Assembly (NCBI GenBank): GCA_003644825.1
Contig: QNDJ01000013.1
Coordinates: 1-12,955 of the forward strand
Source: B21-G16 sp003644825 [NCBI: Candidatus Zhuqueibacterota bacterium]
GTDB taxonomy: Bacteria > SM23-31 > B21-G16
DNA: 12,955 bases
Direction: 5' to 3'
Part shown: piece by piece, positions 1-12,955 of the stretch
How the letters are laid out: the number at the start of each line of letters is the position of its first letter
Numbering within the stretch: the first letter of the stretch is position 1
The notes under the pieces: generated by a model
Database searches by the model: none
Told to the model about the DNA's origin: nothing
Seen by the model: the letters and a program-made list of their open reading frames with translations, nothing else
Translations under genes and position numbers: made by a program

Positions 1-243
1 CAACAATAGAGCTCTGTAGGAGCGGCATAGAAATATTAATTTGATCATAGATTAGTGTAACTCATGCTTCCAGCTTGAGATTTAATTATCATAACCATAC
101 ATTTAAAAAGTACGCAAATTTTTTTAACACAAATTCGTTTAATTAGTGTAATTCGTTGTTTATATATTAACAGAATATCACTACCAGAATTAAATTCTGG
201 TAGTGGATAAAACATTCTGGAAGTCTCTGAAGAGACTGTTTTT
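1..243. repeat. Intergenic long repeat, copy A
   Basis: This stretch matches 657-903 at roughly 90% by eye, in the same orientation. Its modules come in fixed order: a GAGCTC..GTAGGAGC head (9-23); an imperfect hairpin around a TCC loop (61-79); a stretch with attcgttt/gtgtaattcgttg (133-158); a perfect inverted repeat with 13-bp arms around one base (179-191/193-205); and a second hairpin with 7-bp arms (222-228/231-237) followed by a T run. No reading frame or RNA gene is evident. The copy may begin before the window. It may be a non-autonomous mobile element or a repeat-extragenic palindrome cluster; the sequence does not decide this. Confidence 0.8.
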
Positions 244-656
244 TAGTTTCAGCAATATAAAGTTATAATCCTTTTAAAAAAGTCATTTTAATGACTTACC
301 AGTGGACTATTCCAGCACCAGAATTAGATTCTGGTGCGGAAAAAAAAAGGAATTAAATAACATTTCTGTAGTTCAAGAATCCCTATCCGAGCTTTTAAAA
401 CAACATTCCGCTCCTACGGAACTCAATATTTTTTTATCTCTTATCTACAAACATATCGCTCCTGACGGAGCTCTTTAATAAAGCTTAATATGTAATTGTA
501 AGCCTTTACAGGCAAAGAAATCTATAACCTCAACCAAACGGTCAAGAGTGATGAAAAGAATGGAATAATTTCTTTGAGGTAAAATATAAAAAATGAAAAT
601 ATATTTTTCTATTCAAGCCCTGTAAGGGCGAAATGTTTGTAGCAAAAAATAGTAAA
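244..656. repeat. Spacer rich in short palindromic modules
   Basis: No gene is visible here. It holds a variant of the CCAGAAT palindrome (10-bp arms 315-324/328-337, loop TAG). Two reverse-orientation GCTCC..GGAGC modules follow, one imperfect (410-414/418-422) and one clean (458-462/467-471). Next is a GCCT..AGGC hairpin (502-513). A GCCCT-GTA-AGGGC hairpin (617-629) is followed by a tail reading aaatgtttgtagcaaaa. The same tail, inverted, precedes the module at 458-471. Several families of small modular palindromes are thus interleaved between the two long repeat copies. Confidence 0.7.
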
Positions 657-903
657 CAATAATAGAGCTCCGTAGGAACTGCATAAGAAATATTAATTTG
701 ATTATAGATTAGTGTAACTCAAGCTTCCAGCTTGAGATTTAATTATCAGAACCATACATTTAAAAAGTACGCAAATTTTTTTTAAAATAAAATTCGTTTA
801 ATCCGTGTAATTCGTTGTTTATATATTACCAGAATAACACTACCAGAATTAAATTCTGGTAGTGGATTAAAGGATATGGAAGTCTCTGAAGAGACTGTTT
901 TTA
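657..903. repeat. Intergenic long repeat, copy B
   Basis: This is the second copy of the unit at 1-243, with the same module order. The GAGCTCC head is at 665-679. The hairpin with a TCC loop has perfect 8-bp arms here (718-725/729-736), where copy A has a mismatch. The 13-bp-arm inverted repeat is at 838-850/852-864 and the AGTCTCT/AGAGACT hairpin at 881-887/890-896, again followed by Ts. The hairpins are preserved while surrounding bases drift, which suggests that the folded form, or recent copying, matters. Confidence 0.8.
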
Positions 904-940
904 TATACAATTAGAGAAATATGAGAAATTAGTTGTTCCA

Positions 941-980
941 TTACAACCCCGCAGGGGTGTAATATTTGTAGCAAAAATAG
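941..980. repeat. Palindrome plus TTTGTAGCAAAAATAG tail module
   Basis: An ACCCC-GCA-GGGGT hairpin (946-950/954-958, with imperfect pairing beyond) is followed by aatatttgtagcaaaaatag. The tail is nearly the same as that after the unrelated palindrome at 617-629. The module lies 10 bases past the stop codon of the secretin gene, so it is transcribed if the pilus operon reads through. There is no T run on the minus strand, so it is not a standard intrinsic terminator. Confidence 0.6.
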
Positions 981-989
981 TTAAAGATA

Positions 990-2159
990 TTAATTATCCC
1001 CCTTATTTTTCGCTCTTAGCCTCATTTCTTTTAATTTTTCTTTAATAACATCTCTTTCAAACCCAGATTTTCTAAAAGCACGAGAATGAACATCTGGAAG
1101 AATTTCAGCCTTCAAGGATATAACAAGCTCTTTTTCAGAAGTACTTTTACTGTTGTAACCTGTAAGATACCTGATACCAAGAACCCACCAGGGAAGGTCT
1201 TTCAATCCTGGAATTCCCTTTCTTTCGATTGAATTCTCAGTTGAATAAAGACCAGCAATAGCTGTTTCTTCTCCACTGCTTAAAAGAAGAGAAGTTTTAG
1301 CCATTATTTTGTTAACAACAGTGCTAATTGCTCCAGGAGTTACCGAACTTTTCTCCGCTTTTACATTCAGATGAACAAACTCAAAGTCATCCTCCTTAAT
1401 TACTGTTGGAGTAACGGTTAAAATTATTCCGGAACTGACAAAGTTATCGGTTACATTTCCTGCAAAATCTCTCTGCTTAATAGAAAAATCCTGCCCGACC
1501 TGGACTTTGCCTTCTTTTCCATCAAGAACAGTAATCTGGGGCGTGGCAATTATTTTACCAATGTTTTCGGTCTCAAACATCTTTAAAAGCGTAGAAATCT
1601 CCATCTTTCCTGTGGCTTTTGATACCTGAAAATTGAAAATATCCTCCGGTAAAGCACCACCTACAACATTCTGCTGAAAAGAACTGGATATATCACCTTT
1701 CATCTTAAAAAAATTCCAGTTAATCCCTCTTTCCCTCATTTTTTTTCTGTCAGCGTCAAAAAAAACAGCAGATATTTTTACCTCTCTTGAGCTCGAAGTA
1801 TAAATCTCCTCTGGCGATTCTTCTTTCTTCTTCTTTCTTTCTTCAGATATAATCAGGATATAGTTACTGTATTCTTCATACCTGAGATTATTAACAATTG
1901 TAATAAGTTCAAGAGCTTTTCTCCATTCCAGGTTCTCAATATTAACATTTATTGGAGATGTTCTTTTCATAGGGTCTATTATTAGTTTTCCTTCGAGCCT
2001 TCCACTAACTTCACTTAGAGCCTGTATAGCAATATTAAAAGGTGTTCTGCTGTCAAGAGAAATTTTACCCTCTGGCGAAACATATTCAGATGGTATTCTT
2101 TCCTGAGAATACCCATTATTAAATAAAAAAACAATCAGAAAAATTGTAAAATACCTCAT
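990..2159 (-). CDS. pilQ: Short PilQ/GspD-type secretin
   Basis: Outer-membrane secretin subunit, forming the channel through which the pilus leaves the cell. I chose ATG 2159 (389 aa) because it has an AGGTGA ribosome site at 2164-2169 and opens directly with a Sec signal peptide (1-19, ending GYSQ). The longer frame from 2183 would overlap the upstream gene and bury the signal. Residues about 33-105 look like the secretin/TonB N0 domain. Residues 127-150 (VKISAVFFDAD..GINWNF) are the usual strand-helix entry to the secretin core. Residues 185-355 are the core, with ATPQITVLDG, GIILTVTP and RKGIPGLKDLP. The tail 356-389 is basic. PilQ proteins usually exceed 600 residues; here the AMIN domains and additional N-domains are absent. 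It is the last gene of the operon, 4 bp after pilO/P. The secretin assignment is secure; the pilus role rests on context. Confidence 0.88.
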   Translation of the reverse strand: MRYFTIFLIVFLFNNGYSQERIPSEYVSPEGKISLDSRTPFNIAIQALSEVSGRLEGKLIIDPMKRTSPINVNIENLEWRKALELITIVNNLRYEEYSNYILIISEERKKKKEESPEEIYTSSSREVKISAVFFDADRKKMRERGINWNFFKMKGDISSSFQQNVVGGALPEDIFNFQVSKATGKMEISTLLKMFETENIGKIIATPQITVLDGKEGKVQVGQDFSIKQRDFAGNVTDNFVSSGIILTVTPTVIKEDDFEFVHLNVKAEKSSVTPGAISTVVNKIMAKTSLLLSSGEETAIAGLYSTENSIERKGIPGLKDLPWWVLGIRYLTGYNSKSTSEKELVISLKAEILPDVHSRAFRKSGFERDVIKEKLKEMRLRAKNKGDN

Positions 2160-2163
2160 TTCA

Positions 2164-2169
2164 TCACCT
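2164..2169 (-). promoter_or_regulatory. Ribosome binding site setting the pilQ start
   Basis: AGGTGA lies 4 bases before ATG 2159 and overlaps the TGA stop of the preceding gene (2164-2166). This supports translational coupling and the shorter secretin start. Confidence 0.6.
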
Positions 2170-3045
2170 GTAATTAAATTCAATTTCTAAAAATCTCTTT
2201 TCTATGATTCCCCCGATATTCAACAGGAATTCTGCTCTATTCTTTTGATGGTCTATTGCAGTTAACCTTCCAAGATACACTTTATCACCCAGATTAAGCA
2301 TCTTTAACTCACCGTTTTCATTTTTCAGGAAAATTTTATTACCGCTTATCCCTATCAGCTTAACTTTATCAATTTCAACGAGCTTCTCAGTATTTGGTGG
2401 CAATGTCTTTCTTATCAGTGGTCTAAAAGGATTAAAAACAAAATATTTATACTGCCCCGCATAATTATAACTTACTCTATTTTTACCAGCAATTTCTGAA
2501 TAAAAAGTTTCTATAACCATATCAAATTTCACAAGATACTTTATTTTTCCACTTTCGGGTCGAACATCCTCCTTATTATTTATGGATAATGATTTTATCC
2601 TTATAAGAACAGGAAAATTTTCAAGCTTCCATATAAAACTCCTCAACCTCCTGAAATCTCCAGAACCATATAAAATATATGTACATATTCCAACATCTCC
2701 TTCTTCTTTAGCACCAAGATAATCTATATTAATAGATATAAAACTATCCTTCGTTGAAGCGAGAACATTTAATAACCTGAAGATTAATACCGAATTTTCT
2801 TTTTCCAAAATATATTTTTTCCTTACAAGCCAGGCTTCCCTTAATTTTTTCAGGTTTTCTTCAACATTACTTCTTGTTGCAGTTATTTTCCTTGCTTTAA
2901 TAAGTTCATTTTCTTTAATTTTTTGAATCTTGACAAGGTTACGAATTTTCTTTGTTTCCCCGAAATAGAGAGATAAAAAACCACCCATTGACACTATAAT
3001 TAGAAGAATCAGAAAAATCATTGAATTTCTTTTACCATAACTCAT
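2164..3045 (-). CDS. pilO: PilO-PilP fusion, inner-membrane alignment protein
   Basis: Inner-membrane component linking the pilus motor to the secretin. ATG 3045 (293 aa) is preferred over the GTG at 3066, since AAGGGAG sits 5 bases upstream. One membrane helix (about 8-28) is followed by a charged coiled-coil stretch (30-85). Residues 88-183 fit the ferredoxin-like PilO fold, with the characteristic GSGDFRRLRSFIWKLENFP. A linker leads to NPFRP (205-209), the pattern that opens the globular part of PilP, and to a beta-rich end (228-293: KLIGISGN.., NLGDKVYLGRLTAID). PilP is normally a separate lipoprotein; here no lipobox is seen and the domain is tethered through the PilO helix. Homology to PilO is clear from layout and motifs; the PilP assignment is an inference from pattern and position. 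Confidence 0.72.
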   Translation of the reverse strand: MSYGKRNSMIFLILLIIVSMGGFLSLYFGETKKIRNLVKIQKIKENELIKARKITATRSNVEENLKKLREAWLVRKKYILEKENSVLIFRLLNVLASTKDSFISINIDYLGAKEEGDVGICTYILYGSGDFRRLRSFIWKLENFPVLIRIKSLSINNKEDVRPESGKIKYLVKFDMVIETFYSEIAGKNRVSYNYAGQYKYFVFNPFRPLIRKTLPPNTEKLVEIDKVKLIGISGNKIFLKNENGELKMLNLGDKVYLGRLTAIDHQKNRAEFLLNIGGIIEKRFLEIEFNYR

Positions 3046-3050
3046 TTTTA

Positions 3051-3057
3051 CTCCCTT
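3051..3057 (-). promoter_or_regulatory. Ribosome binding site setting the pilO/P start
   Basis: AAGGGAG lies 5 bases upstream of ATG 3045. It selects this start over the in-frame GTG at 3066, which overlaps the previous gene's stop as GTGA. Confidence 0.6.
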
Positions 3058-3062
3058 AAAAA

Positions 3063-4592
3063 TCACCTGTGTTTAGCAAAAATCTCAAACTCATAAATTT
3101 TTAACTTCCTTATTTTATTTTCTTTTACATTTTTTATCTGGGTCAGCGAATCCTTTTGAGCAAGAAGATTTATTCTATTTCTATAAAGAGACTTACCCTC
3201 AATAGAATAATTCTTACTGTTACCCTGAAACTTTTCTATCCATAAAGAATTCAGAACCTGAATATTTCTGGAATAGTTTTCAAGAATATCACTGTACTTT
3301 ATAGAACTATTCTCAAGACTATCAAGAATTGAATTTTTCTTTTCCAGTAATTTAATTTCTCTGACCATATTATTAACGTAGTCAACAATCTGGTTTTCAA
3401 ACTCAATTTCGCTTTGCAGGCTGTTGATATTTGTTTCCAGATTTCTGATAGTCATATTTGCATCAACTTTCTTTTTTAATATGAAAAGACTCATTAGCAT
3501 AAGAAATAAAAGCAGCAGATATCCATGCCACTCTATCCTGAGTGCGTTCTGTTTTCTCCTGATTCTTTCCGGTAGAAAATTAATTTTGAAGAACTCTCTG
3601 TTTTCAGGCTCCAGTATTTTCCATGCAATAGAGATTGGAATAGCATAACTCGATATTAAAAACCTCTTATCCTGGTCAACTGCCGATTGGTCTAAAATTT
3701 CAGGTTCCAGATAATTAATAACAACAGAATCACCAAATTTCTCTTCAAGATATTTTTTAAGCTCAATGTTAATGGACTCTCCAGCGAGTAAAATCGTATT
3801 AACACCCGAAATACCCCATTCATCAAGCCCTAAAAGGATTTTACTGTAAATAGTATCTTTGATAGAAGAATCATTCACACCTTCATTTATTACATCTCCG
3901 AGATGGAACAACTCGCCACCTTTTATAAAAATTATCCGGGCAAAATCATTACCAACATAAATTATTATCCCGGTTTCATCTTCCTGGAATCTGTAACATC
4001 TTCTCGCATAACCAATTAAAGCAAGCTCATTTACTTCAATAAGGCTTATTTTAATCTTTCCTGAAACGTAACTATTGATCTCCTCTAATTGTTCAAGGAT
4101 ATAATTATTTCCTTTGCAGTATATTCCAAGATATGAACCATCATACTTCCTTATACACTCAAAACAATCTTCTTCAATTGGTTCTTTCTGGTTAGAATTT
4201 ACTTCTCTGAGGAAATTATATTTTATTTTTTTCTTTTTAATGTTCTTAAACTTTCCGTTCTGTATGAAATAGACGTTTGACTCCGGAATATTTACCCCGA
4301 ATCTTCCTTTTTTTACAGGCAAATGATTTATAGAATCCAGTATAATGGAAAGATTTGTGGGTTTTTCAAGTTCTGTAATTTCCTGAAAACCAGAATCATC
4401 CATAGATTGTGCATCTCCAAAAATTTCTTTGCTCTGGTCTAAATTTTCCGATGTTTTTTCCTCCTCAACCTCAACTCTTGAAATAAGCTTTGAAGTAAAT
4501 ACGTCTTTAATAAATATTTTTCCTTTTCTTTTTACAAGATGAGCAACTTTTAAATCCAATCCATCAATAAAAATTCCAAATGAATGCTTCAT
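3063..4592 (-). CDS. pilM: PilM-PilN fusion, actin-like plus membrane assembly protein
   Basis: A fusion (509 aa) of the cytoplasmic actin-like PilM with the bitopic PilN. Residues 1-330 look like PilM: FGIFIDGLDLKVAHL at the start, a second nucleotide-fold strand pair at 207-233 (GIIIYVGNDFARI..GGELFHLGDV) and an adenosine-type motif at 266-273 (TILLAGES). Residues 337-347 read INFLPERIRRK, matching the INLLP motif at the N-terminus of PilN that normally binds PilM. A membrane helix (357-372), a coiled coil (380-430) and a small C-terminal domain follow, as in PilN. In standard pilus operons these are two genes. An acidic low-complexity insert lies at about 40-80. GAGAGGA at 4602-4608 supports the start, which lies 3 bp after pilT. 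Confidence 0.8.
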   Translation of the reverse strand: MKHSFGIFIDGLDLKVAHLVKRKGKIFIKDVFTSKLISRVEVEEEKTSENLDQSKEIFGDAQSMDDSGFQEITELEKPTNLSIILDSINHLPVKKGRFGVNIPESNVYFIQNGKFKNIKKKKIKYNFLREVNSNQKEPIEEDCFECIRKYDGSYLGIYCKGNNYILEQLEEINSYVSGKIKISLIEVNELALIGYARRCYRFQEDETGIIIYVGNDFARIIFIKGGELFHLGDVINEGVNDSSIKDTIYSKILLGLDEWGISGVNTILLAGESINIELKKYLEEKFGDSVVINYLEPEILDQSAVDQDKRFLISSYAIPISIAWKILEPENREFFKINFLPERIRRKQNALRIEWHGYLLLLFLMLMSLFILKKKVDANMTIRNLETNINSLQSEIEFENQIVDYVNNMVREIKLLEKKNSILDSLENSSIKYSDILENYSRNIQVLNSLWIEKFQGNSKNYSIEGKSLYRNRINLLAQKDSLTQIKNVKENKIRKLKIYEFEIFAKHR

Positions 4593-4595
4593 AAT

Positions 4596-5834
4596 TTATA
4601 TTCCTCTCAAAAGTTCTAAAATTCTATTTTTGTTATTTGCATAGTTTACAGCATTTTCTTTACTTATTTTTCTCTCTTTATATAACCTCAATAAATCCTG
4701 TTCCATAGTAATCATTCCCAATCTTCCAGATTCATTAATCATCTGATAAATTTCCCCGGTATTATTATTTTTAATTGCAGCTTTCACTGATGGTGTAGTT
4801 AGAAGAATTTCTTTAGCAAGAACCCTTTTTCCGGATAAATCTGGAACTAACTTTTGAGATACAACACACGTAAGAACATCTGCCAGTCGATTTCTTACTC
4901 TTTCCTGTTCTATTGGTGGGCATTCACCAATTATCCTGTCGATACTTTCCACTGCTGAAGCAGTATGCAATGTTGAAAATACTTTATGCCCACTATCAGT
5001 AATTTCAAGAACGGCCATTATAGTTTCAGGGTCTCGCATTTCGCCGACCACAATTATGTCTGGGTCCTGTCGTAATGACTGGATGACCCCCTCCTTAAAT
5101 GAAAGAACATCTCTTCCAACCTCTCGATGCCTGATTATACTCTTAAATGGTTTATGAACAGTTTCTATTGGAGAACCGATAATGGTTATATGGGCATTAA
5201 CTGTATGGTTATTAGCGCTTATTATACTATCCAGGGTGGAACTTTTCCCCGAACCGGTAATTCCGGTAACGAGAATGAGACCCTGCTTCACATAATTAAG
5301 ACTCATAACTTTGAGAACATTAGGATGAAATCCCAGCTCTTTTATTGGTCTGATTTTATTGGAAATATATCTCATATTTAAACATAAGTGGTCAAGGTCA
5401 AAATAAAGGTCTGCTCTGAATCTTTCTGCATCTTCAAGAATCTGGTAAGAAAAATCAAGATTCCTGTTAGAATAAAGATAATCCCTCTGTTTTTCCGTAA
5501 GTATACTCTGGCAAAGAACATCAGTTTCTGTTAAAGTAAACTCTCCAAATTCCATCTCGGGTTTTTTCTCCCCATATATTCTATACCATACCTTTCCATT
5601 ACAACCCCTACCGCCAATATCTATATCAGAAGCCTCTTTCTCTTTCATAAAAAGCAAGAAAGTATCAAATAATCTTTTTAAAAACATCCTTTCTTCTGGA
5701 GTAATTTTTTTCAAGCTATTCCCTATAAATACCTGTCTGTCTAATCCAATCAGGTTTTCCGGTACCTGTTCAGCAATGTTTTTTAAAATCTTTCTCGGAA
5801 AAGAAATATTTTTATGGTTAACAATATTTAACAT
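4596..5834 (-). CDS. pilT: PilT-like pilus ATPase with altered Asp box
   Basis: Hexameric AAA-type motor of the PilT/GspE family (412 aa), expected to act at the inner membrane on PilC to retract the fibre. Walker A is GITGSGKSST (191-200), Walker B is IIVVGEMRD with Glu265, and the His box is SGHKVFSTLHT (281-291). The C-terminal part ESGRLGMITMEQ (368-379) matches PilT rather than PilB, and there is no zinc tetracysteine. Two departures stand out. The Asp box, usually TIEDPIE, reads IIGSPIE (218-224), so Glu-Asp has become Gly-Ser. The AIRNLIRE retraction motif is reduced to AIKNNNTG (353-360). The N-terminus is also extended by about 45 residues. AGAGGT 6 bases upstream supports the start. 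Whether it still hydrolyses ATP normally is uncertain. Confidence 0.87.
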   Translation of the reverse strand: MLNIVNHKNISFPRKILKNIAEQVPENLIGLDRQVFIGNSLKKITPEERMFLKRLFDTFLLFMKEKEASDIDIGGRGCNGKVWYRIYGEKKPEMEFGEFTLTETDVLCQSILTEKQRDYLYSNRNLDFSYQILEDAERFRADLYFDLDHLCLNMRYISNKIRPIKELGFHPNVLKVMSLNYVKQGLILVTGITGSGKSSTLDSIISANNHTVNAHITIIGSPIETVHKPFKSIIRHREVGRDVLSFKEGVIQSLRQDPDIIVVGEMRDPETIMAVLEITDSGHKVFSTLHTASAVESIDRIIGECPPIEQERVRNRLADVLTCVVSQKLVPDLSGKRVLAKEILLTTPSVKAAIKNNNTGEIYQMINESGRLGMITMEQDLLRLYKERKISKENAVNYANNKNRILELLRGI

Positions 5835-5844
5835 TATAAAACCT

Positions 5845-6405
5845 CTATTCTAATAAATTTCTGGGAACAATTTTTTTCCTTATATAAGTTTTAATATAAT
5901 CATTTCGTAATGGAACAATACTTTCAACTTCCAATTCGATGCCTATATTTCTTATATTCTTCAAAACAGAAGTTTCAGAACCCGTACTATCATAATAACT
6001 GAAATGAAGTTTCGTTATTCCAGCCGAGATCGCCAGAGGAGTCTGTCCATTTATCACCCTGTACAGTACCCGATCATCCGGATTATCAGTATAATCGAGT
6101 TCCGAAACATCTCCAGTATAATATAATACAGAATCGACCATACCATTATTATCTATATCTGCTATAAAAGATATCCTATCAGAATCAGCCGTAGTGATTG
6201 AAGTTATCAGGGAATCCACACCAAAACCAATTTTCCTTATATCCTGTTCAATCATTCTGGAAATATCAACAACATTTTGCTCTGTTACAAGCATCAAATT
6301 ACTTCTGTAGTTTGATTCAATAAGATTCGCATTCGTGCCAATAAGGGCTAAAAGAAGAACTGAACCTGCTATAAAAGCTCCTATTATGTCAAGCAATGTG
6401 CTCAT
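5845..6405 (-). CDS. PilW-like minor pilin with non-canonical N-terminus
   Basis: A 186-residue protein with a hydrophobic segment (about 5-23) right at its start, followed by an amphipathic helix containing MIEQDIRKIGFG (51-62). This resembles PilW/GspJ minor pilins, as does the following section: DRISFIADIDNNG (77-88), a VLYRVINGQ strand (113-121), LHFSYYDSTG (133-142), then paired strands. Minor pilins of this group prime or cap the fibre. The usual prepilin leader (Gly/Ala before FTLIE) and the Glu at mature position 5 are missing, so how it is processed is unclear. Asp83, Asp85 and Asn87 (DIDNNG) could form a small calcium loop. GAGGT overlaps the stop of the upstream gene, 7 bp away. 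Family assignment is by pattern and context. Confidence 0.65.
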   Translation of the reverse strand: MSTLLDIIGAFIAGSVLLLALIGTNANLIESNYRSNLMLVTEQNVVDISRMIEQDIRKIGFGVDSLITSITTADSDRISFIADIDNNGMVDSVLYYTGDVSELDYTDNPDDRVLYRVINGQTPLAISAGITKLHFSYYDSTGSETSVLKNIRNIGIELEVESIVPLRNDYIKTYIRKKIVPRNLLE

Positions 6406-6412
6406 ACTTACC

Positions 6413-6904
6413 TCATTTACTGAGTGAAAAAAGAATAGAATTTTTTATACTATCATCAAAGAACGGGCTCGAAATAGCAACCGTCATTTTTTTAAGAAAT
6501 GTTGGACCTGAAGTTATTATTGAATCGGGTTGTATAGTATCAACATAAGCCACCGATACTGTAACAACATAGTTAATTAATGGTGTTTTTACTGTATCTG
6601 AATATCCATTGTAGTCATCCACATCATCAAAACTCGAAGGAGTCTCCCCTGGTTCAGGTCCAAGAAATTCTGGAGAAGTAAGAGCACCAGGTAAATCAAC
6701 TACTACGGAATCAACAAGAACTTCATCAAAAGAAAGACACAATGAATTCTCTATAATTTCCTGAGTCAATTCGACTCCAGTTATTCTTAATTCATTCTGT
6801 ATCAATGTTAATTCATTCTGACCAATAGTATTATTAACCGAAAGAAAAATGAGACCTAAAATTATTGTGGCACCTATTACAAGCAACATTTCTCCGGTAT
6901 TCAA
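6413..6904 (-). CDS. Small pilin-like membrane protein, TTG start
   Basis: A 163-residue protein encoded between pilB and the PilW-like gene. A hydrophobic segment (about 7-23) follows the short start MNTGEM. A polar helix (28-55, IGQNELTLIQNELR..) and an acidic, beta-prone domain with one cysteine (Cys56) come next. This layout is that of a minor pilin or pseudopilin (compare GspI/PilV), but I recognise no specific family. Gly4 followed by Glu5 could be a degenerate peptidase site, but Glu would be at mature position 1, not 5. The start is TTG, supported by AAGGAG 9 bases upstream; the next ATG (6889) would cut into the leader. A role in priming or fibre structure is inferred from position. 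Confidence 0.6.
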   Translation of the reverse strand: MNTGEMLLVIGATIILGLIFLSVNNTIGQNELTLIQNELRITGVELTQEIIENSLCLSFDEVLVDSVVVDLPGALTSPEFLGPEPGETPSSFDDVDDYNGYSDTVKTPLINYVVTVSVAYVDTIQPDSIITSGPTFLKKMTVAISSPFFDDSIKNSILFSLSK

Positions 6905-6913
6905 AAAATTTTT

Positions 6914-6919
6914 CTCCTT
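6914..6919 (-). promoter_or_regulatory. Ribosome binding site supporting a TTG start
   Basis: AAGGAG lies 9 bases before TTG 6904 and overlaps the TAA stop of pilB (6918-6920). It favours the TTG over the in-frame ATG at 6889, which has only a poorly spaced GGAGAA. Confidence 0.5.
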
Positions 6920-8693
6920 AATCTTCAGCTGTTACAAATGCGACTTCATCACAGGTTGTTATTCCTTCTTTAATTCTTTCTCTTCCCGAAGCTCTTAATG
7001 TTAACATACCTTCTTTTATTGCCAGATCTTTAATTGCCTCTTCATTTATCTGAGAATTTGAAGAAAGAATGACCTGCCTTATCTCTTTATGGAAATAAAG
7101 AGCCTCGTGAATAGCAACCCGTCCTTTATAACCCGAGTAATTACATTTTTCACATCCTGCACCTCTATAAAAGGTCGTATTTTCTATTTCTTCATCAGTA
7201 AAACCCAGAGAAAGCGGTATATTAGGATTAATATTTTTAACTTCTTCTTTACAGTTATTACAGATTGTTCTTACCAGCCTCTGGGCAACAACAATATTTA
7301 TGGCATATGCAATCAGAAATGGTTCAATTCCCATTTTATAAAGCCTTGATACCGCACTGGCAGCATCATTAGTATGCAGGGTGGAAAATGTCAAATGCCC
7401 CGTATTAGCCAGTTTGATAGCAATTTCAGCTGTTTTAAGGTCTCTTATTTCACCAACCATCACTATGTCCGGGTCATGTCGCAGGATACACCGTAGTGCC
7501 TGATCAAAATTCATCTTTTCACCGATCTTTAACTGTCGAGCACCCCGAATTAGATACTCAACCGGTTCCTCAATAGTAATAACATTCAATGTCGGGTCTA
7601 TAACATGGTGTAAAGCAGCCATCAAGGTTGTGCTTTTACCACTTCCAGTAGGTCCTGTAAGAATAACAATACCTGAAGGCTTTTTTATAGCCTTCAGAAA
7701 ATCCTCTTTTGCTTTTTTCTGAAAACCAAGTTTATTTAAATCAGTAATAACCTTTCTATCATCAAGGATTCTTATAACTATACTTTCAAATCTTCTTTGA
7801 TATTCAGAGCCAACAATCGGCAGAATAGAAACCCTGTAACGAATCAGATAATCATCAACTTTTCTCTGAATAAATCCATCCTGAGCTTTTTCTCTTTCAA
7901 ATCGGTTTACATTTTTAGACCTATCCTTGAATACAGCAGCAATAGCTTCTGGTTTTGTATTTTCCTGTCTTAACCACAACTGGAGTTTTCCATCAATTCT
8001 GAATAATATATCAGTTGTTGATTTATCTCTTGGCATAATATGGATATCACTGGCTCCTCTCCGAACAGCCTCAACCAGGCATCCTTCAACGAGATTTACC
8101 AGTAAACTCTGATTGATTTCAGCATCCAGAGCTTCTTCCTGAAATTCTTCTTCTTCCTCAACAGATTGAACCTCCGGAGTAATCTCCTGCAATAACTCAA
8201 GATACTCATTTTCGACAGGTGTTATTTTTTTAATCAATTCATCCAGTTGTTCCATACGACAATAAGCAATCTCATATCTCTTGTATCCAAAGTACATTGC
8301 AATTTCAGGAATTTCCCTGTCAGTAGGGTCTGGTGTAAGGAAAATCAGTGTGTTTTTCTTTTCATCAAGCAATTTGTATGGAATAATTTTTTTCTTTAAT
8401 ACAATCGATCTTTTGTCTTTTGGTAAACCGGATAACACTTCAGAAATGAACTTTAAACATTTATCATCCATTTCATCCTTTGATAAATCCACCTCCCGAA
8501 AAGCATAAATAGAGGCAATTTCCCGATAAACAAGGTGTCTATCCACACTGAAATCATTTATTAAAATTTCTCCGAGTTTTCTTCTTTTCTCAGGTGGTTC
8601 TTTTTCCTGAATTCTAAGCGCAATCTGGACGGTTTCCTCCGAAACTATCCCTTTTTTTATAAGCCTTTCACCTATTCTTGTTAAAGCTTTCAT
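6918..8693 (-). CDS. pilB: PilB/GspE-type pilus extension ATPase
   Basis: Cytoplasmic hexameric ATPase that powers fibre assembly through PilC. At 591 residues it has the usual PilB length. An N-terminal MshEN-type domain (about 1-160) is joined through an acidic linker (178-190) to the N2 domain (195-310, with RRGASDIHIMP and FEREKAQDGFI). The motor domain has Walker A GPTGSGKSTT (347-356), an intact Asp box TIEEPVE (373-379), Walker B VMVGEIRD with Glu415, and a His box TGHLTFSTLHT (431-441). Four cysteines (478, 481, 514, 517) form the zinc site typical of PilB/GspE. Nothing required for catalysis is missing, in contrast to the PilT homologue of the same operon. The gene begins 5 bp after pilC ends; AGGAT lies 8-9 bases upstream. 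Confidence 0.95.
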   Translation of the reverse strand: MKALTRIGERLIKKGIVSEETVQIALRIQEKEPPEKRRKLGEILINDFSVDRHLVYREIASIYAFREVDLSKDEMDDKCLKFISEVLSGLPKDKRSIVLKKKIIPYKLLDEKKNTLIFLTPDPTDREIPEIAMYFGYKRYEIAYCRMEQLDELIKKITPVENEYLELLQEITPEVQSVEEEEEFQEEALDAEINQSLLVNLVEGCLVEAVRRGASDIHIMPRDKSTTDILFRIDGKLQLWLRQENTKPEAIAAVFKDRSKNVNRFEREKAQDGFIQRKVDDYLIRYRVSILPIVGSEYQRRFESIVIRILDDRKVITDLNKLGFQKKAKEDFLKAIKKPSGIVILTGPTGSGKSTTLMAALHHVIDPTLNVITIEEPVEYLIRGARQLKIGEKMNFDQALRCILRHDPDIVMVGEIRDLKTAEIAIKLANTGHLTFSTLHTNDAASAVSRLYKMGIEPFLIAYAINIVVAQRLVRTICNNCKEEVKNINPNIPLSLGFTDEEIENTTFYRGAGCEKCNYSGYKGRVAIHEALYFHKEIRQVILSSNSQINEEAIKDLAIKEGMLTLRASGRERIKEGITTCDEVAFVTAED

Positions 8694-8698
8694 TTGGG

Positions 8699-10051
8699 CT
8701 ATCCTATGTTTTGCATTCCAGGCATTTTTGGTCTTATCACAGCAGTTTCAGATGATACCAGGGTTAGAACAATCATAATGACCATTATAAAAAGTGATAT
8801 AGAAATATTAATAAAATCTATAATGTTTTTAAGTTTGTATGTCGTTTCTTTTTCGTAATAATTTGCCACCTGCAAAGAAGCCATTTTTAATGTTCCGGTT
8901 TCTGCTCCTGAATTTAACCTCGAAAGAGCATTTTTAGGAAAAACACCTGTCTTCTCAAAAGCTTCTACTAATCCTGTTCCTTCTTTAAGCATTAATGGAA
9001 TTGCTATAGTTTTTATCTGATTTTCTATATACTTATTTCTACATGCTTCAGCAGCAATCCTTATTGCCGTAATATTTTCACCTGAACCTGAGTAAAGGCA
9101 ATGAAACACTCTCGAAAATATCTCTATGCTTGTTTTATGAAACAGCCCCCCTATAACCGGTAATTTGATGAGATATTTATCGAAAATAATTCTTCCTCTT
9201 TCAGATTTTATTAACTGTAGAAAAACTAATACTAAAACTATTGTAAAACCAGCAATAAATAGTATATTACTCTGTAGAAAATCACTTATCATCAAAGTCA
9301 TTTTTGTCATAGGTGGTAATGGAATATCATACTTGGTGAACAATTCTGCTGTTTTAGGAAATATATAACCAACATAAAATATTACTGCCCCGAAAAGAGC
9401 AATGAGAACAACTACCGGCATTATAAGAGCCTGTCTTAAACTTTTTTTAAACTCTTCATCTCTTTCCAGGAATTTTGCCGTACTCTCATAAATCGATGCC
9501 ATATCTCCGCTTGTGGAAGCAATACCAAGCATATATGAGGGAAATTTACCAAGAACTGAGGAGTGTTTTTCAAAAACTTCCTTACCATCTTTTCCTTCTT
9601 TCAGTTCCTGATGAATATCTTTTATTGTATTTTTTAATGTATTATTTTCAATATCATTGGATAATAGAGAAAGGATTTCGTCAAACGGGAGTTTTTCTCT
9701 GAGCAAATCCGCACAAATCCTTATAAACATTACCACATCTTTACAGGGCGGTTTAAACTCAAAATCAAATAATTTTTTTTCAACCTTAATAACCGAATAT
9801 CCTATTTTTCTGAGAGCTTTTTCGACATCTTCTTTAGAAAAGGCTTTCTGCTCACCCTTAACAGGTTTTTCAAGTCCTTTCTGTGCTTTATAAAGGAATG
9901 TTCTTTTTTTCTCAAGATTTGTAACGCGAATGGCAAACTTTGCAGTTATTTCTTTGACAGCTTTTCTTGCTTCTCTTGAGTTCCTTGCAGAAAAATATCC
10001 CTGTACTACTTTATTCCTTATGTTTATTCCTTTATATCTATAATCAGCCAT
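8699..10051 (-). CDS. pilC: PilC/GspF-type inner-membrane platform protein
   Basis: Inner-membrane platform (450 aa) on which PilB and PilT act. Two T2SSF domains are visible: residues about 105-232, with GIASTSGDMASIYESTAKFL, and about 306-432, with RLNSGAETGTLKMA and the YYEKET loop. Membrane helices fall near 208-231, 262-281 and 408-432. The N-terminal 100 residues are longer than usual and look like two related half-units: YRYKGINIRNKVVQGYFSA..VTNLEKKR (5-50), then FSKEDVEKALRKIGYSVIKVEKKL (71-94). Both end in a strand followed by E-K-K. The strong AGGA site is 7 bases upstream. It follows the pilin gene after a hairpin-bearing gap, so its level may be set relative to pilin. Confidence 0.93.
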   Translation of the reverse strand: MADYRYKGINIRNKVVQGYFSARNSREARKAVKEITAKFAIRVTNLEKKRTFLYKAQKGLEKPVKGEQKAFSKEDVEKALRKIGYSVIKVEKKLFDFEFKPPCKDVVMFIRICADLLREKLPFDEILSLLSNDIENNTLKNTIKDIHQELKEGKDGKEVFEKHSSVLGKFPSYMLGIASTSGDMASIYESTAKFLERDEEFKKSLRQALIMPVVVLIALFGAVIFYVGYIFPKTAELFTKYDIPLPPMTKMTLMISDFLQSNILFIAGFTIVLVLVFLQLIKSERGRIIFDKYLIKLPVIGGLFHKTSIEIFSRVFHCLYSGSGENITAIRIAAEACRNKYIENQIKTIAIPLMLKEGTGLVEAFEKTGVFPKNALSRLNSGAETGTLKMASLQVANYYEKETTYKLKNIIDFINISISLFIMVIMIVLTLVSSETAVIRPKMPGMQNIG

Positions 10052-10082
10052 TTTACTTTCCTTTCTCTAAACTTTTCATTGA

Positions 10083-10111
10083 AGGCTGCCCGGAATAGAA
10101 CCGGACAGCCT
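10083..10111 (-). promoter_or_regulatory. Stem-loop between the pilin and pilC
   Basis: On the minus-strand transcript an 11-bp stem (arms 10101-10111 and 10083-10093) encloses the 7-base loop TTCTATT. Its only irregularity is one U-G wobble; the same sequence on the plus strand has an A-C mismatch instead, so it is best as minus-strand RNA. It starts 6 bases after the pilin stop codon. No U run follows, so it is more likely a 3' stabiliser, processing site or partial attenuator than a full terminator. It would let the major pilin be made in excess of the machine. Confidence 0.7.
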
Positions 10112-10117
10112 CCTGTA

Positions 10118-10522
10118 TCAGTCAGCTGTAACAGTAGCTAATGTAGGGGTTCCTACCGTTGGAATAGTAATAGAATAAACGGCAAGAGTTCCATCTCCAT
10201 CACCATCTTCCTTTAATGTTCCTGTAACTACAAGAGTTGCACCGGGAGTCCCGGAAATAGCAAAAGAACCGTTCTCATTTGTAGGATTTACACCAAGAGT
10301 TGCAAGTGTTACACCGGTAAAATCTCCAGTAGTTGGTCCACCCATTGAAGCAGGTTTTCTCAGATACTGCTGAGCCTTCTGAGCAATCTGATTCAAATCA
10401 AGTATTACAGCATCCCTGTTGGATTCAAATGCAGACTGATTGAATATATTTAACCCCGCAACAACTGCTATCCCAACAATTATTACCCCCAGAACAATCA
10501 ATAAAAGTTGTTGTTGACCCAT
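10118..10522 (-). CDS. Major pilin-like protein, leaderless type
   Basis: Probable main fibre subunit (134 aa), first gene of the operon. It begins MGQQQLLL and continues as an unbroken hydrophobic helix (about 6-24), then a polar helix (29-55, with NRDAVILDLNQIAQKAQQYL) as in pseudopilins, then a Gly/Thr-rich beta domain. A DGDGDG loop (106-111) could bind calcium, as the C-terminal loop of GspG does. There is no cysteine. The prepilin motif (Gly before FTLIE) is absent: Gly2 is in a possible -1 position, but mature residue 5 is Leu, not Glu. A perfect AGGAGG 8 bases upstream, a likely dedicated promoter and a 3' hairpin all suggest high expression. I recall similar uncharacterised proteins from Ignavibacteria-type genomes; the pilin role is inferred. 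Confidence 0.75.
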   Translation of the reverse strand: MGQQQLLLIVLGVIIVGIAVVAGLNIFNQSAFESNRDAVILDLNQIAQKAQQYLRKPASMGGPTTGDFTGVTLATLGVNPTNENGSFAISGTPGATLVVTGTLKEDGDGDGTLAVYSITIPTVGTPTLATVTAD

Positions 10523-10971: not shown

Positions 10972-12369
10972 ATGGATGCATTTGTTGAAAAGACTTTTAA
11001 CCTTGTTAAAAAAACAATCGAAAATAATAGATGGAGACAGGAAGAATGCATTAACCTCATTCCTTCAGAAACAACACCGAGTATTCTCGTTAGATTACTC
11101 GAAATATCTGACCCCTCAGGAAGATATGCAGAGCACAGAACTATGAAAGGAAAAGAAATATATTTTTACCAGGGAATAGACTTTATAAAAGATGTTGAAA
11201 TAGAAGTAAAAAAAGAATTAATAAAATATTTCAACTGTAACGAAGTAGATGTAAGACCTATAAGCGGTCAGATGGCTAATATGGTCGCATTTAATGCTAT
11301 GCTTAAATTTATAAACAGGGGTAATAAAGGAAAACCCTTAAGAAGAATGACAGCCGTGATGAACAATGAACTGACTCACGGAGGGCATCTCAGTTCACAG
11401 CCTATGGGTGCTCTTTTCAACTGTGTTGAAATCGACCCCAATACAGGAAGAGAACGAACCATTGGTTTTCCTGTAAGAAAAGATAACCCTTACAAAACCG
11501 ATATAACAAAACTTGACGAGTTAATAAAAAAATATAAACCTGAACTGATAATATTTGGCAAAAGTATGTTCATATATCCTGAACCTGTAAAAGAAGTTTA
11601 CGATATGGTAAAAGATATGGAAAATAGACCTGTCATTATGTACGATATGGCACATACCCTTGGTTTATATGGAGCTTTTCAGAAACCTTTTGATGAAGGT
11701 GCTGATATTTTAACGGGAAGTACTCATAAAACTTTCTTTGGACCCCAGAGAGGAGTAATAGCAACAAACTTTGACGAGGACTCCCCTTTTAGAAAATTAT
11801 GGATAGATATTAAGAATCGAGCCTTCCCTGGAGCTACAAGTAACCACCATCTTGGTACATTACTGGCACTGCTACTTGCAACTATAGAAATGAATCAATT
11901 CAAAGATGAATATCAATCTCAGGTGATAAAAAATGCTAAATCTTTTGCTCGTTCTCTGAAAAGTTATGGTATAGATGTAGAAGGTGATGAATCTGATGGC
12001 TATACAAAAACTCATCAGGTCCTTATACGGGTGAAAAAATATGATTCTGGCGAAGTAATTGCAAAAAAACTCGAAGAGAATAATATTATAGCAAACTATC
12101 AGGCTTTACCGGATGATGAAAGTTTCATAAATTGCAGTGGAATCCGCCTCGGGGTTCAGGAAATGACAAGATTTGGAATGACTGAAAAAGATTTCGATAC
12201 CATTGCGGGTTTAATGGCAGAAGTAATTGTATATAATAAAAATGTAAAAGATGAGGTGAAAAATCTAAGAAAAAATTTCCTGAAAATGAAATTTTGTTTA
12301 CCGGACAAAGAATCAATAGAGCTTACAAAAAATTTATTAAACAGTATCTATTCTAATTTATCGGGTTAA
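10972..12369 (+). CDS. Divergent serine hydroxymethyltransferase-family PLP enzyme
   Basis: Cytoplasmic fold-type I PLP enzyme of the SHMT family (465 aa; GlyA is usually about 420). The cofactor machinery is intact: the Schiff-base lysine in STHKT (Lys253), Asp225 and His228 in YDMAH, His136 in THGGHL stacking on the ring, and Arg392 in SGIRLG for the substrate carboxylate. Glu33 (NLIPSET) and RYAE (51-54) match the active-site entry. Other positions depart from GlyA: the phosphate-binding SGSQAN is SGQMAN (98-103), YYGG is FYQG (65-68), and a helical C-terminal extension covers about 415-465. It may therefore be true SHMT (serine to glycine, C1 units) or a paralogue such as a beta-hydroxy amino acid aldolase. 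GGAGG 6 bases upstream fixes the start. It is divergent from the pilus operon, with no evident functional link. Confidence 0.82.
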   Translation: MDAFVEKTFNLVKKTIENNRWRQEECINLIPSETTPSILVRLLEISDPSGRYAEHRTMKGKEIYFYQGIDFIKDVEIEVKKELIKYFNCNEVDVRPISGQMANMVAFNAMLKFINRGNKGKPLRRMTAVMNNELTHGGHLSSQPMGALFNCVEIDPNTGRERTIGFPVRKDNPYKTDITKLDELIKKYKPELIIFGKSMFIYPEPVKEVYDMVKDMENRPVIMYDMAHTLGLYGAFQKPFDEGADILTGSTHKTFFGPQRGVIATNFDEDSPFRKLWIDIKNRAFPGATSNHHLGTLLALLLATIEMNQFKDEYQSQVIKNAKSFARSLKSYGIDVEGDESDGYTKTHQVLIRVKKYDSGEVIAKKLEENNIIANYQALPDDESFINCSGIRLGVQEMTRFGMTEKDFDTIAGLMAEVIVYNKNVKDEVKNLRKNFLKMKFCLPDKESIELTKNLLNSIYSNLSG

Positions 12370-12382
12370 TTCAATTACAAAT

Positions 12383-12955
12383 ATGCATAAAAATCTCCTA
12401 ACATATCTCTTATTTATAGCTATCGTATGTAGTTACTCTTTGATTTTTTCACAGACCCTTCCTCTTAAAAACTACAATACAAAAGACGGTTTACCTCAGT
12501 CAACAATTAGATGTATATTTCAGGATTCAAAAGGATTCATCTGGTTCGGCACTTTTAATGGAATCTCAAAATTCAACGGAACTAAATTCTATAATTACAA
12601 TATTGAGAATGGCCTGAGTAATAATACTGTTAATTCAATTATGGAAGACAATAATGGAAATATATGGATTGGTACTCCCAAGGGTCTGAATAAAATGGTT
12701 AATTCGAAAATTACCGTAGAAAAGCTTAAAGGTAATATTACTAAAATCTTAAAAGATAAAAAGGGAAACTTATTTATTCTTATTCCCAAGCAAACCATTT
12801 ACAAATATGATGGAAAAGAGTTCACTCCATTAGATTTTAACTTTAACAAAAAAGAGTTACACATAACTAATTTCGCGCTCGATAAAAAAGATAACATCAT
12901 TTTAATCAATTCAGGAAAACTATATAGATATGATTTTGTTTCTACAAAGGAAATA
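12383..12955 (+). CDS. Two-component-regulator propeller sensor (partial, 5' part)
   Basis: The first 191 codons of a gene that runs off the window. A signal peptide (1-24, ending LIFSQ) is followed by beta-propeller repeats of the Reg_prop type: GLPQSTIRCIFQDSKGFIWF (37-56), then GLSNNTVNSIMEDNNGNIWI (76-95). Both are followed by GT..G(I/L).. blades. Such propellers form the periplasmic sensor of large hybrid kinases or membrane-bound regulators, commonest in Bacteroidota and relatives; the output domain lies outside the window. ATG 12383 begins 13 bp after the SHMT stop, with no recognisable ribosome site, so it may depend on coupling with the SHMT gene. Confidence 0.85.
   Translation, partial: MHKNLLTYLLFIAIVCSYSLIFSQTLPLKNYNTKDGLPQSTIRCIFQDSKGFIWFGTFNGISKFNGTKFYNYNIENGLSNNTVNSIMEDNNGNIWIGTPKGLNKMVNSKITVEKLKGNITKILKDKKGNLFILIPKQTIYKYDGKEFTPLDFNFNKKELHITNFALDKKDNIILINSGKLYRYDFVSTKEI

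Follow-up and report, generated by a model that had tools for sequence, protein, structure and literature searches.

The 12,955-nucleotide contig QNDJ01000013.1 from the genome of B21-G16 sp003644825 (Candidatus Zhuqueibacterota; assembly GCA_003644825.1), taken over its whole length and called the window below, holds a type IV pilus operon of nine genes, all on the minus strand. The genes occur in the order pilin 1, PilC, PilB, pilin 2, pilin 3, PilT, a PilM-PilN-type fusion, a PilO-like protein and a secretin (Table 1). With PilB, PilC and PilT all at the locus, and the secretin as well, the machinery is that of a type IVa pilus. An earlier note on this DNA had reported that the three pilin-like proteins start with MGQQQLLL, MNTGEMLL and MSTLLDII, that they carry no prepilin signal and that no prepilin peptidase (PilD) gene is present among the nine. 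The open reading frames bear out the starts, and no peptidase is among the Pfam and NCBIfam families matched by the nine proteins. In the following, pilin 1 is the major pilin, and pilins 2 and 3 are the minor pilins P2 and P3.

An in-frame stop lies 4, 9 and 13 codons upstream of the starts of pilins 1, 2 and 3, respectively, and no ATG, GTG or TTG occurs between stop and start in any of the three. Shine-Dalgarno-like sequences are found just 5′ of the starts; a CTG before pilin 2 sits 5′ of that gene’s AAGGAG. Published prepilin leaders are 6 to 26 residues long (PMC4471445; here and below, such a number stands for the part of the source available to us), and a leader of this length could therefore not be encoded from a usual start codon ahead of the window pilins. 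A short or hidden leader was considered and is ruled out by the close upstream stops without such a codon. Neither the window pilins nor their relatives have a class III signal peptide, i.e., a hydrophilic leader that ends in Gly or Ala before a hydrophobic stretch, and none of the three proteins, searched singly, matched N_methyl or another Pfam pilin family. The absence of a prepilin signal thus stands. The three window pilins begin at the mature N terminus or within a few residues of it, and their starts are real.

For pilin 2, sequence searches against Pfam, NCBIfam and the PDB returned nothing useful; pilins 1 and 3 were matched only weakly (geopilin at an E value of 0.5, and PRK10557 at 0.025 for pilin 3). 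The AlphaFold model of pilin 1 (predicted local distance difference test score [pLDDT], 88) has a helix at residues 3 to 55 and four strands. Its best structural matches were Pseudomonas aeruginosa PilE (Z = 9.9; root mean square deviation [rmsd], 2.4; 90 residues aligned), Neisseria meningitidis PilV (Z = 9.6), Thermus PilA4 (Z = 9.4) and PAK pilin (Z = 8.8), with the first unrelated chain at a Z score of 5.2. The model of P3 (pLDDT, 92; helix at residues 2 to 57) matched TTHA1219 (Z = 14.4; rmsd, 2.3; 141 residues aligned), a chain of the XcpV-XcpW complex (12.1), XcpW (3nje; 11.4), EpsI-EpsJ (10.9) and GspJ (3ci0_J; 10.1) in VIA-align, and the first unrelated chain scored 5.1. Pilin 1 is thus predicted to have a type IV pilin fold and P3 a GspJ-like minor pilin fold, both of the lollipop kind, in which a long N-terminal helix joins an antiparallel sheet. 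Residue 2 of pilin 1 aligns with the first residue of both PilA4 and gonococcal pilin, and residue 2 of P3 with the first residue of a chain in the XcpGHIJK model, an offset of +1 that recurs for 3nje, 3cfi, 2ret and 3ci0. These first aligned residues indicate that the translated pilins begin at the mature N terminus to within a few residues.

A scan of genome contigs confirmed at least 337 proteins related to the major pilin; counts are based on the best 80 loci. In a plasmid collection searched by tblastn, the major pilin had no match. One of the two scan seeds was GQQQLLLI, and the conservation of this motif therefore partly reflects selection. According to record titles, the 80 loci come from Ignavibacteria, Kryptoniota, Neomarinimicrobiota, Calditrichota, KSB1, LCP-89, Zixibacteriota, Cloacimonadota and Latescibacterota, with two from Patescibacteria; most of these lineages presumably belong to the Fibrobacteres-Chlorobi-Bacteroidetes group. 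The 71 loci with xGQQQ frames hold 96 of them, which start with ATG (86), TTG (8), GTG (1) or ATA (1). Their upstream stop lies at a median distance of 4 codons, and a Shine-Dalgarno-like motif was found for 89 by a loose test. Among 15 frames without GQQQ, 13 begin with MG(T/S/H)QQ and 2 have no readable start. An alignment of the window pilin with 47 of 83 relatives, all picked for an MGQQQ start, fixes Gly2 and Gln5 by construction; 19 of its 48 rows weakly matched ComP_DUS (best E value, 2 × 10−4). The leaderless starts are not a product of chance, as the same starts return in relatives from many genomes. A wrong start or a truncation of the genes, with the true leader encoded upstream, might be read into the in-frame ATG, GTG or TTG seen upstream in 3 of the 96 major-pilin frames and in several P2 and P3 frames. 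The close stops and Shine-Dalgarno sites in the window and most relatives make this explanation hardly credible, and for the window it is largely refuted.

Many of the 80 loci are cut by contig ends; pilC was found in 62, pilB in 54 and pilT in 43. The major-pilin gene ends at most 1.5 kb before pilC in 58 of the 62 loci that hold pilC, and 22 of the 80 loci have two to four major-pilin copies, often in tandem and with near-identical N termini (e.g., L020, L076 and L082). The comparison proposed in the earlier note, of MGQQQLLL-type proteins near pilB and pilC in other genomes, thus returned both the leaderless start and the position before pilC. These features also bear on whether the proteins might be machine parts or form a short pseudopilus rather than a surface fiber. 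P3 does resemble the pseudopilin GspJ, but the predicted major-pilin fold, the gene’s place ahead of pilC, the multiple copies and the presence of PilT make such a role unlikely.

On one Patescibacteria-titled contig (L018, 9926 to 10414), a lone leaderless pilin begins with MGQQQ at position 10001. Its neighbors read as gyrB-, adk- and map-like genes, and no pilB or pilC of the window type was found in this locus. Lateral transfer and a binning artifact are both possible origins.

In relatives of P2 (22 frames) and P3 (21 frames), too, the start adjoins the helix. A fourth leaderless pilin-like type, P4, comprises about 400 to 460 residues (11 aligned members), starts with MGRF, MGGK, MFGK and similar, and matches DUF4900 in 10 of the 11. 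The copy in the window genome begins with MGRSLILL and lies on contig 260 (L150), apart from the contig of the window operon. P4 had no match among PDB sequences, and GspK was not matched by sequence; its position and start suggest a GspK-like role.

With the start codon taken as position 1, the fifth residue of the major pilin is Gln; the P2 family has Glu or Gln there in 16 of 21 rows, including the Glu of the window P2. The P3 family has Asp6 in 13 of 20 rows, again including the window protein, and Glu or Gln at position 5 in 4; Asp6 becomes residue 5 once Met is removed. In all 11 P4 members, the last polar residue within positions 2 to 9 is Lys or Arg, and none is acidic. Residue 2 varies among the minor pilins. 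The claim in the earlier note that none of the three window pilins has Glu5 would hold only if they were cut after Gly2 or Gly4; from the start codon, P2 has Glu5, P3 has Asp6 and the major pilin has Gln5. Depending on the register, Glu5 therefore appears not to be wholly lost, as the minor pilins hold Glu, Gln or Asp near this position. In canonical systems, the tip-capping subunit lacks Glu5 (PMC10191384).

We then compared carriers of the leaderless pilin for prepilin peptidase and canonical prepilins, using 147 Ignavibacteria-class genomes drawn with a completeness filter of at least 95%. The leaderless major pilin occurred in 78 of them. Peptidase_A24 (PilD) was found in 7, all among the pilin carriers, leaving 71 of the 78 without a prepilin peptidase match. 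N_methyl prepilins were found in 9 of the 147 genomes, and 69 of the 78 carriers had no N_methyl match. Each of the seven peptidase-bearing genomes also holds N_methyl prepilins, and eight of nine peptidase sites, at least one in each of the seven genomes, lie 0.6 to 1.2 kb from such a prepilin. N_methyl matches were thus found in 7/7 genomes with a peptidase versus 2/140 without (P = 1.4 × 10−10 by Fisher’s test, which ignores kinship). In four class genomes with large contigs, nothing matched PF01478 above the cutoff even at an E value of ≤10 (best, 0.4), while P2 and P3 were present in all four. One of these is a single contig of 3,300,414 bases with four leaderless pilin types: two MGQQQ pilins, with Gly2 kept, stand beside PilC-PilB-PilT, and MNTGQ, MGFSTLLD and MGGKA proteins lie in a row elsewhere. 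As a control, 12 of 14 other genomes, some of them archaeal, had a match above the cutoff in the peptidase family search. That carriers lack a PilD match in 71 of 78 class genomes suggests that PilD is dispensable for leaderless pilins. Two subthreshold PF01478 matches (E values, 0.4 to 0.5; 48 positions each) might be taken to mean that PilD is replaced by an unrelated protease or by a prepilin peptidase that has diverged strongly, but there is no leader to remove, the search succeeded in most controls and genomes without PilD seldom have N_methyl prepilins. We give this explanation very little credence.

The window genome itself (493 contigs, 84% complete; the window is contig 13) contains a PilD gene on contig 197, where it adjoins the gene of a further PilB-type ATPase, as well as canonical prepilin genes on contigs 148 and 368. 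A genome-wide absence of PilD, which the earlier note had left to be checked, is thus disproved, although the gene is not in the window operon. From this peptidase, the second ATPase and the prepilins, the genome seems to hold two pilus systems. To the earlier concern that a canonical prepilin elsewhere in the genome might be the fiber subunit, the reply is therefore mixed: such genes exist, but the second PilB groups with canonical ones, and most class carriers have no N_methyl prepilin. A tree was built from 44 ATPases. In it, the 30 PilBs that come from leaderless operons (from 26 of the 47 loci whose PilB is full length, plus the window and 3 others) form one group (support, 96/88). Ten PilBs of canonical systems, including the second PilB of the window genome and five from the Ignavibacteria class, stand apart (85/95), with some rows on long branches. 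Two fetched peptidase regions (L152 and L154) had no PilB match and are not in the tree. The topology is consistent with a single origin of the leaderless system but does not prove it.

Loci L052 and L066 carry a second PilB-like ATPase 5′ of the pilins that falls outside the main clade of leaderless-operon PilBs (98/100).

Taken together, the leaderless DNA, its conservation, the operon context, the predicted folds of pilin 1 and P3, the absence of PilD from most carriers in one class and the PilB clade make it very probable that the window encodes a type IVa-like pilus in which neither the major nor the minor pilins are made with a leader, each protein starting at the mature N terminus or within a few residues of it. 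Prepilin peptidase would not be needed, because the proteins begin at the mature N terminus and have no leader. The initiator Met would be deformylated and, ahead of a small residue 2 (Gly or Ser), cut off by methionine aminopeptidase, and the N-terminal helix would insert with its N terminus inside, without a charged leader. The pilins, presumably not N methylated, may pass directly to PilC and PilB, primed by the GspI/J/K-like minor pilins, and PilT could then retract the fiber. The place of Glu5 may be taken by a polar residue near position 5, namely, Gln in the major pilin, mostly Glu or Gln in P2 and mostly Asp in P3, with none acidic in P4. On a broader scale, there is probably a superphylum-wide branch of type IV pili without class III signal peptide and peptidase, in which subunits are born mature and unmethylated and Gln or Asp replaces the salt bridge between Glu5 and the N-terminal amine.

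Of the two options given in the earlier note, the data favor insertion without PilD processing, with 71 carriers from filtered genomes lacking PilD and four of the class staying below the cutoff at the permissive threshold, over cleavage at an ultrashort leader. In the latter scheme, PilD would cut after Gly2 (MG|QQQ) and Gly4 (MNTG|E), releasing two to four residues. The conservation of Gly2 across major pilins fits this, and trimming after Gly2 is possible where PilD is present, as in the window genome and in part of a mixed set of carriers described below. However, the MG start is kept in the class carriers without PilD, so trimming is not required; residue 2 varies in minor pilins, the window P3 has no Gly within its first eight residues and the leader would be shorter than any in the published range. 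We therefore consider such cleavage improbable.

Several observations weigh against a leaderless, PilD-independent pilus. The evidence consists of genes and predicted folds. Against canonical pilins, the structural register of pilin 1 shifts by 1 to 3 residues (in PAK pilin, residue 4 falls on residue 1), and P3 has other offsets for 5bw0, 5vtm, 6utu and TTHA1219, so that the entries disagree. Gly2 is kept in every major pilin with a readable start, just as Gly at −1 is kept in prepilins. Some minor-pilin genes have a further upstream start (P2 in L069 and L094; P3 in L053 and L094) or a weak Shine-Dalgarno site, and DUF4900 is the sole family of P4, with no pilin-family match. PilD does occur in the window genome, as described above. 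In the mixed set (50 of 70 named pilin-carrying loci, of mixed genome quality, from several phyla, among them Kryptonia, Calditrichota, Marinimicrobia, Cloacimonadota and KSB1), the peptidase was unmatched in 26 carriers, but one or more were present in 24. Completeness of the class genomes was requested in the filter rather than printed per genome, and two class genomes without PilD (G123 and G045) still have an N_methyl match.

Like type IVa pili, the system has one ATPase for extension and one for retraction, a platform protein, a PilN-like and a weakly matched PilO-like protein, a secretin, a major pilin of the predicted pilin fold and minor pilins. It differs in that the pilins have no leader, most carriers in one class have no PilD, the major pilin has Gln at the Glu5 position, the PilBs form a clade of their own and a putative PilM-type part is joined to a PilN-type part within one protein. 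The separate clade supports the suggestion in the earlier note of a different class of pilus, but since its machinery and predicted folds match type IVa pili, we call it a variant. The predicted fold of P3 resembles the minor pseudopilins GspI-J-K of type II secretion systems and Thermus TTHA1219, and P4 has no acidic residue near its start, like the tip subunit without Glu5 (PMC10191384); unlike in those systems, however, the pilins here are leaderless, and P4 has DUF4900 and no GspK sequence match. The mannose-sensitive hemagglutinin (MSHA) pilus locus also lacks its own peptidase gene, but MSHA genomes hold another peptidase-encoding system (Denise 2019, PMC6668835), whereas most carriers of one class here have none. 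Among archaeal pili with divergent pilins, Glu5 is often absent and a peptidase was undetected in Nanoarchaeota (PMC4471445), and some clusters in Nanohaloarchaeota lack a prepilin peptidase (PMC9563170). These are archaeal systems, and leaderless pilins are not described in the available text of either source; the Nanohaloarchaeota paper found no annotated pilins.

Prepilin peptidase has been counted among the core parts of type IV filaments, and the leader motif both defines pilins and serves to find them (PMC4471445, PMC6668835, PMC10191384). The exceptions concern archaea (PMC4471445, PMC9563170) or loci that possibly borrow a peptidase (PMC6668835). In the open-access papers searched, we recognized no report of leaderless type IV pilins or of a PilD-independent pilus. 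Leaderless pilins escape searches for the leader motif: in Melioribacter roseus, the authors found pilT, pilQ, pilB and pilC but not pilA or pilD, and concluded that pilA was missing (PMC3534657). A leaderless pilin would explain why pilA was not found, and the missing pilD would then be unsurprising. The type IV pili cluster of Caldithrix abyssi is named without detail in the available text (PMC5317091). The proteins described here are candidate pilus subunits for lineages with seemingly incomplete sets, one cultured species included. If the reading of a leaderless pilus is true, PilD is not obligatory in type IV filaments, and a natural system without leader and peptidase allows the roles of the leader, N-methylation and Glu5 in membrane topology, subunit hold-back and docking to be addressed directly.

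Table 1. Features of the window
Feature	Position	Strand	Remarks
Leaderless major pilin (pilin 1), MGQQQLLLIVLGVIIVGIAV... (MGQQQLLL)	10118..10522	-	ATG start; relatives adjoin pilC; AlphaFold model (pLDDT 88) matching type IV pilins
PilC platform protein (T2SSF)	8699..10051	-	Pfam PF00482, E 8e-29
PilB extension ATPase	6918..8693	-	TIGR02538, E 4e-131, under curated cutoff; within the PilB clade of leaderless operons
Leaderless minor pilin P2 (MNTGEMLL)	6413..6904	-	TTG start; possibly GspI/PilV-like, from position and sequence pattern; no useful family match
Leaderless minor pilin P3 (MSTLLDII)	5845..6405	-	ATG start; GspJ/PilW-like by predicted fold (pLDDT 92)
PilT retraction ATPase	4596..5834	-	TIGR01420, 324.3 bits, above cutoff of 319.1
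PilM-PilN-type fusion	3063..4592	-	PilN part supported; PilM part putative
PilO-like protein	2164..3066	-	Weak: PF04350 in 2/15 family members, best E 0.001
Secretin (PilQ-like)	990..2183	-	Pfam PF00263, E 3e-27; TIGR02515, E 5e-22, under cutoff
Long direct repeats	1..977		Past the secretin gene
Glycine hydroxymethyltransferase-like gene (presumed)	10972..12369	+
Start of propeller-type sensor (presumed)	12383..12955	+

In the fusion protein, positions 344 to 491 of the family profile match PilN (3jc8; E value, 1 × 10−9), and PF05137 (PilN) was found in 2 of 17 family members. We take PilM- and PilN-type parts to be joined in one protein here, as presumably also in GspL, and the C terminus of the PilO-like protein may be PilP-like. 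The repeats past the secretin gene include units of 97 nt at 97% and 125 nt at 90%, spaced by about 657, plus shorter related units.

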